Source: Candidatus Bathyarchaeota archaeon | Lineage (GTDB): Archaea > Thermoproteota > Bathyarchaeia > Bathyarchaeales > Bathycorpusculaceae | Direction of reading: 5' to 3' | NCBI GenBank assembly: GCA_026014735.1 | Contig: JAOZHT010000002.1 | Coordinates: 744,001-808,000 of the forward strand | DNA length: 64,000 bases | In this document: positions 17,598 to 54,357 of the stretch, one piece after another | Layout of the letters: the number at the start of each line of letters is the position of its first letter | How positions within the stretch are numbered: the stretch's first letter is position 1 | Translations under genes and position numbers: made by a program | The notes under the pieces: model-generated | What the model saw: only the letters and a program-made list of their open reading frames with translations | Databases searched by the model: none | What the model was told of the DNA's origin: nothing

Positions 17598-17897
17598 AAA
17601 ACTCACCAGAAATCAACCTTTTCCAAAGCAGAAAACCCCTAATATACCTTGCCTTCAGGGAATGAAGCCAACATGCCAGCCTATCCGCGGCAACTGCAAG
17701 GAGCCGCCAACAAAGCCGCTGCATCTGCCCAGCAAAACCGATGCCCCGCCCATAAATGCCCAGAGCAGCCAAAAAAACCTCAGCAAACGCCTCAGTATAA
17801 ATAAGGGGCCTATCATTTGGCAAAGCAACAGCGCACCACGCTCTGGCAAGCTAGTGCTTATTACCATGCCTGCCTTTACATTTTATGGTGATTTTAA

Positions 17898-38352: not shown

Positions 38353-38365
38353 CTCGCGCGGCAGA

Positions 38366-38429
38366 TGCATGCCAGCAGCCAATAGCAGCCTGCAGGTGCA
38401 GGGGAAAAGCTGCCTCTGCTGTGCATGCA
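38366..38429. other. Structured intergenic hairpin
   Basis: TGCATGC-C-AGCAG (38366-38378) pairs with CTGCT-GT-GCATGCA (38416-38429), giving 12 base pairs with a small internal loop. Inside, GCAGC/GCTGC and CTGC/GCAG can form further stems. The element stands 13 bp after the stop of the surface protein gene. It may be an RNA terminator or a small structured RNA; there is no protein frame. Confidence 0.5.
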
Positions 38430-38460
38430 ATCAGAGGATGGGTCAACAAGCCCGCATTCG

Positions 38461-38504
38461 TCTACCCTATATATAGAGGGGGGGTAGAGGTGGCAGAGCA
38501 ACAG
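38461..38504. repeat. TATA/G7 element, copy 1, behind the fluoride operon
   Basis: TATATATA (38468-38475) is followed by GA, seven Gs (38478-38484), TAGAGG and AGCAACAG (38497-38504). TCTACCC (38461-38467) and GGGTAGA (38482-38488) form a 7-bp inverted repeat. The element touches the stop codon of the DUF190 gene, the last gene of the fluoride operon. Very similar copies follow the arsenic operon at 52089-52130 and 52143-52184. Confidence 0.65.
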
Positions 38505-38816
38505 TTAGATGACGTAGGTTTCCTGTATGGTGACTAAGCCGTCGTCGCCCACGATTTGCTTAAGCTCAGATAGCAGCGGCTCCAGCTTCTCCTCTTGGTC
38601 CACAACCTCGATGATCAGAGGCATATTCACCGTGACTCCTTCAAGACGCAAAGTGGATTTGCCCCGTTTGCCAAAGCCATTCACACCCGTCCAAACCGTC
38701 GCGCCCTCTACGCCTGCCTTGCGCAGAAAATCCATAATCAGGTCCTGAAGCCGTTTGCCGCCTACTTCATCGTTGCGTTTGATGCGAATCGTTAAATCCC
38801 ACATTTTCTGCCTCAA
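38505..38816 (-). CDS. DUF190 family protein, partner of the fluoride channel
   Basis: The 103-residue PII-like (GlnB-fold) protein belongs to DUF190, often encoded beside CrcB: RIKRNDEVGGKRLQDLIMDF, GATVWTGVNGFGKRG, then VNMPLIIEVVDQEEKL. It probably senses or regulates fluoride export. It overlaps crcB by 4 bp and is the last gene of the operon; the G-rich element directly follows it. Confidence 0.85.
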   Translation of the reverse strand: MRQKMWDLTIRIKRNDEVGGKRLQDLIMDFLRKAGVEGATVWTGVNGFGKRGKSTLRLEGVTVNMPLIIEVVDQEEKLEPLLSELKQIVGDDGLVTIQETYVI

Positions 38817-39202
38817 CGAATCAGCCTCTCCATCACGGCGTCGCCCAGCAATCTGCCGCCGACCAAGGCGCCAAGCGACAAGCCGACGTTTGCTAGGATA
38901 TTGAGTGCCATCAGCATTAAACGGTTGCTCTCCAGCAGATTGGTGGTTTCCAGCGCAAACGAGGACATCGTGGTGAAGGAGCCGCAGAAACCCACCGCTG
39001 CAAACAACGTGTATTTCGCATCCAAATTAAACGCCACCGACAGCACCGAGAACACCCCCAAAATAAAGCTGCCCAAAACGTTAACCACCAAAACATTCAG
39101 GGGTAACCCATAGAACGCCACAGGAGACTCCACCATGCGGTACCGCAGAAACGCGCCTACCACCGCACCCGCCGCCAAGAGAGCAAACTCAATCCACTTC
39201 AT
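38813..39202 (-). CDS. crcB: Fluoride channel CrcB/Fluc
   Basis: The 129-residue protein has four membrane helices with the Fluc signatures GAVVGAFLRYRM, NVLGSFILGVFS and GFCGSFTTMSSFALET. Two subunits form a channel that lets fluoride out. The single-gene form suggests a homodimer. It overlaps the DUF190 gene by 4 bp. I see no fluoride riboswitch upstream. Confidence 0.92.
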   Translation of the reverse strand: MKWIEFALLAAGAVVGAFLRYRMVESPVAFYGLPLNVLVVNVLGSFILGVFSVLSVAFNLDAKYTLFAAVGFCGSFTTMSSFALETTNLLESNRLMLMALNILANVGLSLGALVGGRLLGDAVMERLIR

Positions 39203-39342
39203 GCTTTACCATCCATTTTTGCGGTAGGCATTATCAGCATCCCTTTGGCTGCGGTTCTGGCGTCTGCCACGGCTAATGCCATAGCCAAAACAAAAGCCGC
39301 AGTAAATGTATTAAAACCTTCCCAGCCAGCATTCAGCGCCAA
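39199..39342 (-). CDS. Possible 47-residue ORF overlapping the crcB start
   Basis: A frame from TTG 39342 to TGA 39199 encodes 47 residues with a hydrophobic middle (FTAAFVLAMALAVADA). Its TGA overlaps the crcB ATG by the four bases typical of coupled genes. The frame is open upstream to 39381 without ATG or GTG. It could be a leader peptide, a small membrane protein or chance. No strong ribosome binding site is seen. Confidence 0.3.
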   Translation of the reverse strand: MALNAGWEGFNTFTAAFVLAMALAVADARTAAKGMLIMPTAKMDGKA

Positions 39343-52088: not shown

Positions 52089-52130
52089 CCTTTATATAAG
52101 GGGAGGGAGGTAGTGGTGGAGCAGCAGACG
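52089..52130. repeat. TATA/G-rich element, copy 2
   Basis: CCTTTATATAAGG runs into GGGAGGGAGGTAG, then TGGTGGAGCAGCAGACG. It has the same order as the copies at 38461 and 52143: palindromic TATA core, purine-rich G tract with TAG, then AGCA(A/G)CAG. It is the more divergent of the three. Confidence 0.5.
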
Positions 52131-52142
52131 CCCGCAGCTATG

Positions 52143-52184
52143 TCTCTATAAATAGAGGGGGGGTAGATAGGTGCAAGCAACAGA
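52143..52184. repeat. TATA/G7 element, copy 3, behind the arsenic operon
   Basis: CTCTATAAATAGAG (palindromic) leads into seven Gs, TAGA, GGTG and AGCAACAG. Over the TATA-G7-TAGA part it differs from the copy at 38461 by one base. It ends 16 bp from the arsM stop codon, the last gene of the minus-strand arsenic operon. Confidence 0.65.
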
Positions 52185-52200
52185 GACAAGCGTCTAACCG

Positions 52201-52965
52201 TTACTGTTTTGTTGCCTCTATCTTTATGCTTTCAAGGGGCAAACCATTATACTGCAACTCGCTGATTTCCCTGTCTTCCCCGAGGATGTTAACCTTGAAA
52301 CCTGCCGCCTTAATCTTAGCCAAGTAATCATCCCTATGCATCGCGCCAGAGACACAGCCGCAGAGCAGCCCCTCATCTTCAAGCTGCTCATCGCTTAGCT
52401 GCCCCAGCAAAACAATGTCGGAAACATACATTCTGCCGCCGCTGCGCAGCACACGATGGGCTTCGCTGAAGACTTTGGCTTTGTCGGGTGCAAGGTTAAT
52501 GACGCAGTTGCTGATTATAACATCGATTGAGCCATCTTCAAGGGGCATGTTTTCTATGTCGCCAAGCCGAAACTCGACGTTTCCGTAGCCATGCTGCTTG
52601 GCAAGCCGCCTTGCCTTAACAACCATCGCTTCAGTCATATCTAACCCGATGACCCTGCCTGCTTCCCCGACTTTTCTGGAAGCCAAGAAGCAGTCAAAGC
52701 CTGCGCCGCTGCCCAAATCAAGCACCACATCGCCCTCTCGGAGGCTGCCAAAGGCAGTTGGGTTGCCGCAGCCTAAGCCAAGATTCGCCTCGGGAACAGC
52801 GTTCATTTCTTCATCGCTGTAGCCGATGCTGCCTGAGATTTTCTTCTTGGTTGCCTCGTCAAGCGCGCCGCAGCCGCATTGGCAACAGGAGTTGCCTGTG
52901 TTCACGGCGATTTTTCCGTAGGCATTTTTAACGATTTTCTTCACATCTTTTTCCATATGATTCAT
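52201..52965 (-). CDS. arsM: Arsenite S-adenosylmethionine methyltransferase
   Basis: The 254-residue enzyme methylates As(III) with SAM. The SAM site is [16 protein letters not shown]. The arsenic-binding cysteines known from the family match Cys66 (GLGCGNP), Cys154 (ISNCVINL) and Cys202/Cys204 (LLCGCVSG). An additional CCQCGCG stands near residue 27. Its ATG overlaps the acr3 stop (ATGA), so it ends an arsR-acr3-arsM operon. Two TATA/G-rich elements follow it. Confidence 0.95.
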
Positions 52966-54020
52966 CTCTTTTGGTTATCGCTTTGACCATTGGTACCTGA
53001 CAGCTTTTTGCGCCGTCTTAATGCGATAGATACCAAGGTGAGCATAACAGGAATTTCGATAAGTGGTCCAACCACCGTTGACACGGCAACCATGGGCATT
53101 GATGCAAAAGCTGTCAGCGCTATCGCAATGGCTAACTCGAAGTTGCGCCCCGTGCTGTGGAATGCCATGGTTGAGGAGTCCTGGTAATTGTAGCCCATGC
53201 GGCGGGTGGTAAAGTATACGACGTTAAAGAGCAGAAAGAAGAACAAAGTGACGGGGATAGCCATCTGCCAGACAATGGAGGGGTTATCGATGATTACACC
53301 ACCTCTTAAAGCAAACATGACCACCATCGTTGCCAGCAGCGCCAAGAGCTGTAGCGTGTCAAAGTAGGGTATGAGTTTTTTGTTGAGCCACTGCTGGGAT
53401 TTGTGCTTGATAACTTCCCTTCTTGTTATGGCACCCAGCAGCAGAGGCAACCCCAGATAGAGGAGTATGCTTTCGCCAATCGTGACTATGTCGATGCTTA
53501 TGTAAGTGCCCACCAATACGGCGATGAACAGCGGCGTGGCGATTATCTGGATAATGGAGTTCCACGCCATAAGAACAATTCCCAACGGCCCATTTCCCTT
53601 GCAGAGGTCAGTCCAAACAAGCACCATGGCAATACAGGGGGCCACACCCAGCAAAATCAGTCCAGTCCACAGGTACCTTGCCGTTTGAAGATCAATTAAA
53701 CCCAAAGAGGGAAAGATGACCTCAAAGAAGAGATAGCCCAAGGCAAAGAGTAGAAAGGGATTTATCAGGTAATTGAAAAAAACGATAATGGAGGTTTGCT
53801 TTGGACTCTTGACGGCCTGCTTGAGCTCGCCGATCTCGATTTTAGTCATGGCTGGATAAATCATAAAGAAAAGACCAATAGGAATGCCGATTTGAAGGGT
53901 TGCACTGAATTCAGGGAAGTATTTGCCTAGTGCAAGCCCAATTACGATGGCTATTGCGATCCAAAGCGCAAGTAGTTTGCTAACCCAGTTTAGCGTCTCT
54001 GGTTTTTCTTCGCAAGCCAT
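52962..54020 (-). CDS. acr3: Arsenite efflux pump, ACR3 family
   Basis: From ATG 54020, which has AAGGTGA five bases upstream, the protein has 352 residues and ten membrane helices. ACR3 features include [37 protein letters not shown] with the essential cysteine, and the C-terminal [11 protein letters not shown]. It exports arsenite by proton exchange. The frame is open to 54053, overlapping arsR, but the inner start is better supported. Confidence 0.94.
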
Positions 54021-54033
54021 TTGGGTCACCTTA

Positions 54034-54357
54034 TCAGCAGAAAGCGTTTTCAAAGGCTTCTTTTGTTAAAGTGTTTACTAACTCGCCTGATAATGCATCG
54101 ACCACTTCAAATATGCGTTGGTCCACGATGGAGTACATTCGTTTTGTCCCATCTTTGCGGCAGCGAATTATGCCAGCGTCCTTGAGAATTTTTAGGTGGC
54201 GGGAGACGAGGGGCTGGATGAGGTTTAGGTGTGGGACGATTTCGCAGACGCATTTTTCGCCGTCGCGTAGGTAGGCGATTATTTCTAGCCTGATTGGGTC
54301 TGAGAGGGCGTGGAAGACTGTGGATTTGAAGCGGTTTTGGTTATCGATGGTTGACAT
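54034..54357 (-). CDS. arsR: ArsR-family arsenite-responsive repressor
   Basis: The 107-residue winged-helix repressor carries the As(III) sensor CVCEI (Cys36, Cys38) in helix 3, after ALSDPIRLEIIAYLRDGEK. LNLIQPLVSRHLKILKDAGI is the recognition part. Arsenite binding releases it from DNA. It is first in the arsR-acr3-arsM operon and divergent from the ferredoxin-arsC pair; its likely operator lies between. Confidence 0.95.
   Translation of the reverse strand: MSTIDNQNRFKSTVFHALSDPIRLEIIAYLRDGEKCVCEIVPHLNLIQPLVSRHLKILKDAGIIRCRKDGTKRMYSIVDQRIFEVVDALSGELVNTLTKEAFENAFC

Follow-up and report, generated by a model that had tools for sequence, protein, structure and literature searches.

The fluoride and arsenic operons and the elements behind them

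The window, i.e., the whole stretch of 64,000 nucleotides analysed here, carries a fluoride operon and an arsenic operon, both on the minus strand (Table 1). The identity of the first is backed by Pfam and Rfam through a fluoride riboswitch, CrcB and DUF190, and that of the second through ArsR, an SBF-type (Acr3-like) transporter and a methyltransferase. A first-pass annotation had described two strong copies of a TATA- and G-rich element behind these operons, at 38461-38504 and 52143-52184, and both are found there. The pattern GAGGGGGGGTAGA-N8-AGCAACAG is present at 38476-38504 and at 52155-52183. Even when three mismatches are allowed, the window holds these two matches only and 100 dinucleotide shuffles hold none, and the shared copies are genuine rather than due to chance. 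A looser copy reported at the arsenic locus is equally genuine, since the segments 52090-52127 and 52143-52184 are the two halves of a 97-bp tandem dimer, the first of them diverged. The fluoride-side copy ends at 38504 and abuts the DUF190 stop codon, and the arsenic-side copy ends at 52183, 17 bp from the arsM stop codon. Together with its upstream part, the fluoride element nearly fills the gap between two convergent stop codons, from 38353 to 38504. The first-pass annotation held neither a fourth window copy, located at 17790-17831 between the superoxide dismutase and rubrerythrin genes, nor the periodic array that precedes the 38461 and 17790 copies, nor the 131 matches in the genome.

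Table 1. Elements of the family in the window and the operons that they face (positions counted from the first nucleotide of the window).
Feature	Position	Strand	Details
Class I element between the starts of superoxide dismutase and rubrerythrin	17688..17831	+	array score 47.7; motifs at 17690, 17721, 17752, 17783; TATA at 17795; AGCAACAG at 17824-17831
Class I element (array and module) facing the DUF190 stop	38359..38504	+	array score 32.6, shuffled best 19
Four 12-bp motifs at 31-bp spacing	38361..38465	+	starts 38361, 38392, 38423 (weak), 38454
TATA core of the fluoride copy	38467..38476	+	CTATATATAG
AGCAACAG block of the fluoride copy	38497..38504	+	
Fluoride operon, in front of the class I copy	38505..39295	-	riboswitch 39218-39295; crcB 38813-39202; DUF190 38505-38816
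Class II element, tandem module dimer facing the arsM stop	52089..52184	+	
First (diverged) dimer unit	52090..52127	+	CTTTATATAAGGGG...AGCAGCAG
Palindromic TATA core of the second dimer unit	52146..52155	+	CTATAAATAG
Initiator-like block	52176..52183	+	AGCAACAG, about 25 nt from the TATA centre
Arsenic operon, in front of the class II copy	52201..54357	-	arsR 54034-54357; SBF transporter 52962-54053; arsM 52201-52965

A dispersed family built on one module

The copies belong to a family whose module is laid out as CTATAAATAGA, G6-7, TAG, a variable stretch of 8 bp and AGCAACAG. The family is short and multicopy (43-150 bp; 131 units in the genome according to a sequence model of the 43-bp unit) and comes without a transposase gene. 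With the same model, 9 of 31 congeners hold 2-19 units each and the others none. The 22-bp core occurs at 71 places in the genome at three mismatches or fewer, and the reversed pattern at none. Statistics computed in Python refer to stretches of about 0.36-0.43 Mb that were selected mostly near copies; less bias attaches to the window, the motif-only search and the dimer-half search. Two classes are built on this one module: class I, with the fluoride copy and the copy at 17790, and class II, with the arsenic copy.

No Rfam 15 covariance model matches the element or the repeat referred to below as module B, and a known RNA family was dropped as an explanation for want of a match. No description of such repeats was found in the literature searched. 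A general promoter signature was also set aside, since the upstream regions of the three tRNA genes of the window are without a TATA box plus G-run.

A 31-bp motif array upstream of class I units

Class I units are devoid of the first half of the dimer and carry, upstream of the module, four dyad-like 12-bp motifs (RCARNYGCMYAR) placed 31 bp apart. Counted from the unit start, motif occurrence is highest at -101, -70, -39 and -8 (z of 7.8, 5.7, 6.3 and 8.3, respectively, against other positions), and 54 of 60 intervals measure 31 bp. The last motif spans -8 to +3 and abuts the TATA box, which begins at +7. Within-copy autocorrelation upstream of class I units peaks at 62 and 31 bp, with no such peaks in three control stretches. 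The motif was first spotted at one phase in about ten copies, and the remaining phases and the constant spacing emerged independently. An initial proposal that GCGGCA sets the left end of the element was only partly right and gave way to the 31-bp register. Self-complementarity reaches 43% in the 8-bp frame GCANNYGC and 37% in a 10-bp frame, against 21% in 10-bp spacer windows. The 19-bp spacers are nearly unrelated among loci (30% identity against 27% when shuffled); a CRISPR-like mini-array was considered and tentatively set aside, although the spacers are unique.

The array can be retrieved independently of the TATA box. A search with three motifs at 31 bp, in which TATA is not part of the pattern, returns 24 matches in the present genome (G000; some loci twice), three in congener G009 and none in 30 other genomes, with none for the reversed control. 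The loci that this search adds to the TATA loci, all three of G009 among them, continue into a TATA-G module at or close to the expected register, the TATA box being degenerate at one of them (C2:256514). In congener G013, the rpS19e element retains most of the array.

The 31-bp period is near the roughly 30 bp of DNA that an archaeal histone dimer wraps, and the array could be bound by a chromosome-organising protein (histone-, Alba- or SegB-like), the TATA-like core being part of the binding site and not a promoter. The scattered distribution of the units would agree with this proposal, as SegB sites are likewise scattered over chromosomes (PMC12284271). However, SegB sites are 13-bp palindromes found mostly inside genes (PMC12284271), whereas nearly all units described here are intergenic, and such a protein would leave unexplained why a TATA box is followed by a start-like block at promoter distance. 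A role of this kind is regarded as improbable.

Some class I elements deviate after the G-run, where the block is AGAGAAAAAATCGCA-like instead of AGCAACAG and A-rich at the place where a promoter should melt. This variant is found in G000 at C1:428117 (-), C1:814289 (+), C2:308607 (+) and C3:210461 (+), and in G009 at L196, L198 and L200. In G000, at C2:320999 (+) and C2:333051 (-), the stop codons of two related nucleotidyltransferase-like genes are each faced by a class I element, and G006 and G013 hold a unit at a place that matches these sites.

Tandem dimers of class II

Class II elements, including the arsenic copy, are dimers that share 80-96% identity over up to 97 bp between unlinked loci. 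A query made of the first half and the linker alone retrieves 39 dimer loci, in which the TATA of the first unit varies and the TATA-G core of the second unit is intact in 28. Because dimers gathered in this way mostly keep the core of the second unit, its conservation is not merely an effect of detection. No inverted repeat is formed by the two ends of the dimer, CTTTATATAAGG and GCAACAG.

Placement relative to genes

Genes called by a simple codon-usage caller, which makes the counts approximate, place 43 of 82 units in front of a gene start and 39 in front of the end of a facing gene. Start-facing units lie at least 46 bp from the start, with the one exception of the C1:199493 copy, which overlaps it, and stop-facing units come as near as 0 bp. 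Within 25 bp of the facing stop codon there are 18 units, i.e., 18 of the 39 that face an end, and ten of these are at 4 bp or less. Equally good explanations of the close-to-stop pattern are a function at the 3′ end and the insertion or survival of units in spare DNA, with proximal promoters left free.

The neighbouring genes are mostly housekeeping genes, and include those for rpS19e, aIF1 (SUI1), a prefoldin subunit, rubrerythrin, superoxide dismutase, a nucleotidyltransferase, an adenylate-kinase-like ATPase and IF-2. It had been suggested that the element is a common 3′ control element for toxic-ion resistance, and neither part of this suggestion is borne out. Because the neighbours are such genes as rpS19e, SUI1, the prefoldin subunit, rubrerythrin, superoxide dismutase, the adenylate-kinase-like ATPase and IF-2, nothing ties the element to toxic ions. 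Behind orthologous DUF190 genes, it is mostly absent or unrecognisable, only G011 having a weak, facing TATA-G element, at both of its paralogs. Likewise, no clear arsM ortholog in the congeners is faced by the element, and G014 has one in the other orientation. Toxic-ion specificity was dropped on the strength of these neighbours and orthologs, which removes the link as a false lead. Specificity for 3′ ends is contradicted by the start-facing units: about half of the copies occupy places unrelated to operon ends, the kind of placement that the first-pass annotation had named as refuting its suggestion.

A second proposal of the first-pass annotation was that, read on the minus strand, each copy is a C-rich, hairpin-forming 3′ end. 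A minus-strand control element of this type would fold or bind a protein at the end of the mRNA and thereby set termination or stability. The 18 units within 25 bp of a facing stop codon are in its favour, as are the two or three such placements that recur in congeners (see below). Yet the minus-strand fold energies are like those of shuffled sequences (z from -1.8 to +0.4, including -0.65, -1.41, +0.36 and -0.38), and no enrichment of T-runs (U-runs on the mRNA strand) is detected downstream of the copies; with neither a stable hairpin nor a U-run, an intrinsic terminator was dropped. No consensus RNA fold common to the monomers was found, in an alignment that is itself weak. Since this reading also leaves the upstream array without a role and does not fit the units pointing at gene starts, a 3′ control element is very improbable.

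Conservation of position among congeners

Positional conservation was assessed on 42 congener loci sampled solely for holding a unit. A neighbouring gene is shared with a G000 unit at 13 of them and at none of the other 29. Turnover is high, because most congeners are without the module and 29 of the 42 congener units share no neighbour. Conservation is nevertheless partial rather than nil: eight of the 42 units share their gene end with a G000 unit, some directly behind stop codons, against a rough expectation of about 1 (151 flanking gene ends of about 5,800). The count of eight discounts L229, which lies at a very different distance, and includes the nucleotidyltransferase site of G006, the strand of which was confirmed by eye. 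The two distances of such a pair are 47 and 53 bp for the AK6-like kinase, 81 and 90 bp for rpS19e, and 107 and 114 bp for a reductase; behind stop codons, they are 1 and 7 bp for a small gene and 0 and 6 bp for the nucleotidyltransferase. Two further same-end pairs agree less (92 and 166, and 250 and 212).

The module as a candidate core promoter

The module is best accounted for by the plus-strand reading, which the first-pass annotation had already put forward: a TATA box followed, about 25 nt from its centre, by a conserved start-like block. A box like the archaeal TATA consensus is kept in nearly all units, both in this genome and in relatives, with variation among CTATAAATA, CTTTATATA, CTTTAAATA and CTATATATA, in a sample in which detection favours such units. 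The AGCAACAG block (or a TCGCA block) stands at near-constant spacing and is conserved beside a variable 8-bp stretch. The bases before TATA (TGAGCC or TTGACC), which the last motif overlaps in class I, are weakly conserved and form no convincing BRE. Judged from sequence, the module is probably a dispersed archaeal core promoter, placed in class I under a phased, Lrp-like operator array, and a probability of about 0.58 is assigned to this reading. It is further likely that the core-promoter module was partly spread by duplication, a mixture of the promoter and repeat readings.

In the corresponding model, the TATA box, the G-run and the initiator-like AGCAACAG would constitute the core promoter, with AGCAACAG at the distance of an archaeal transcription start. 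In class I, a dimeric regulator, probably Lrp-like, would bind the four dyad-like sites, three helical turns apart, and wrap about 105 bp of DNA; the site that abuts the TATA box would let it activate or block the recruitment of TBP and TFB. The core module of class II is a tandem dimer spread by duplication. Rightward transcription would lead to a gene start at roughly half of the loci; at the others, among them the fluoride and arsenic operons, it would run antisense to the facing gene. The observations establish the family, its two classes, the 31-bp array, the position of the TATA box and a partial conservation of placement; that the module is transcribed, in which direction, under which regulator and with what effect on resistance to fluoride or arsenic is inferred. 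Several features speak against a promoter. A G-run and a GC-rich second half are not typical of DNA that has to melt for transcription, some half of the copies are directed at a gene end, and at rpS19e, aIF1 and some other loci another TATA-like box stands between element and gene.

Among the closest known parallels to class I are archaeal Lrp arrays, such as the control regions of Ss-LrpB, Ptr2 and LysM: their imperfect dyads are spaced by two or three turns on one helix face, some 100 bp of DNA is wrapped, and a proximal site lies at a constrained position a few bp from the BRE (PMC2995911). In contrast to these arrays, there are here four sites in a strict 31-bp register, at about 25-30 loci of which a good part is not before a gene start, and the motif has a GCANNYGC heart.

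For the stop-adjacent subset, antisense transcription behind operons is possible, because 18 of the 82 units have a facing stop codon no more than 25 bp away and two or three such placements recur in congeners. A bolder version would be a genus-limited regulon of more than 100 TATA promoters, part of them (class I) with four operators phased at three turns and a conserved subset behind stop codons, through which one regulator would direct antisense RNA against many operons, including those for fluoride and arsenic; this version is unlikely. Bathyarchaeia are abundant and largely uncultured. A sequence-defined element that occurs in such numbers and carries so strict a 31-bp array would make a start on the cis-regulatory grammar of this group, and its loci would offer concrete targets for environmental transcriptomes. 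The element would also test for genome-wide Lrp-like wrapping arrays in archaea and whether antisense promoters behind stop codons serve a purpose.

Mobility as an alternative

The family could alternatively be a non-autonomous mobile repeat (MITE- or BOX-like), in which the TATA-G core would mainly be a recognition site for the copying machinery and placement behind stop codons a tolerated insertion. Such mobility would account for the 80-96% identity of class II dimers at unlinked loci, for composites with module B at fixed spacing and for the patchy spread within the genus. It would also fit the fluoride copy, which occupies nearly the whole gap between two stop codons, and the distances kept from gene starts but not from stops. 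The congener intergenic DNA is too diverged for empty sites or target site duplications to show. On the other side, there are no terminal inverted repeats, and no linked transposase was found: the sole Y1_Tnp gene, split over two frames (G000 C1:148408-148696), lies elsewhere, with no copy of the present module or of module B in its fetched locus. Furthermore, class I spacers are unrelated between loci while the motif register is kept, and placement between species is conserved more often than the rough expectation. Mobility alone is rather unlikely to explain the family.

Among known repeats, BOX, RUP and SPRITE of Streptococcus pneumoniae are also short, partly modular and lineage-restricted, and SPRITE is enriched near gene 3′ ends (PMC3049150). 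However, BOX and RUP have reported terminal inverted repeats, target-site duplication and folding, whereas the present elements have neither inverted ends nor a stable fold, and the TATA box is what they conserve best. Promoters able to act on neighbouring genes are carried by dispersed repeats such as Correia elements and other prokaryotic MITEs (PMC10969869). These repeats differ from the family in their inverted ends and sigma-70 promoters, the promoter here being an archaeal TATA one, and class I copies are not copies of one another outside the motifs. REP/BIME sequences with RAYT transposases share more than 100 intergenic copies, occurrence as singles and tandem pairs, and location near many gene ends; a REP/RAYT origin was dropped, as there is no palindromic hairpin and no linked Y1 transposase (RAYT).

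Other repeats and individual loci

Module B is a 134-bp dispersed intergenic repeat that ends in GGTTGTTGTTGTGTAAAGAGGGGTCCCCCACAACAACAACTATAGAAAA and contains an inverted repeat. It is found at G000 C2:672458-672590 and about 40 other places (e.g., L107 and L108), alone or at fixed offsets from the module of the present family, and a relative of it adjoins DUF190 in G011. Another dispersed repeat of the congeners has a CTATAGGGGGTAGG-like core and a TATTAGAAA...GCAGAAAC arm (L149, L147, L152, L133 and L165; G013, G024, G025 and G014); it lies behind DUF190, facing the stop codon, in three genomes and behind arsM in G014.

At C1:197238-202584 of G000 (L192), a unit overlaps the start of a small gene that is followed by a terminase-like ATPase, identified by our own reading of the sequence rather than by a database match, and a ParA-like gene is near. 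A provirus promoter was considered for this copy (C1:199493) and dropped, the other copies not being near such a gene. The L192 site is common to CALMWK (L073), where the orientation is the same, and to G029 (L131), where it is opposite.
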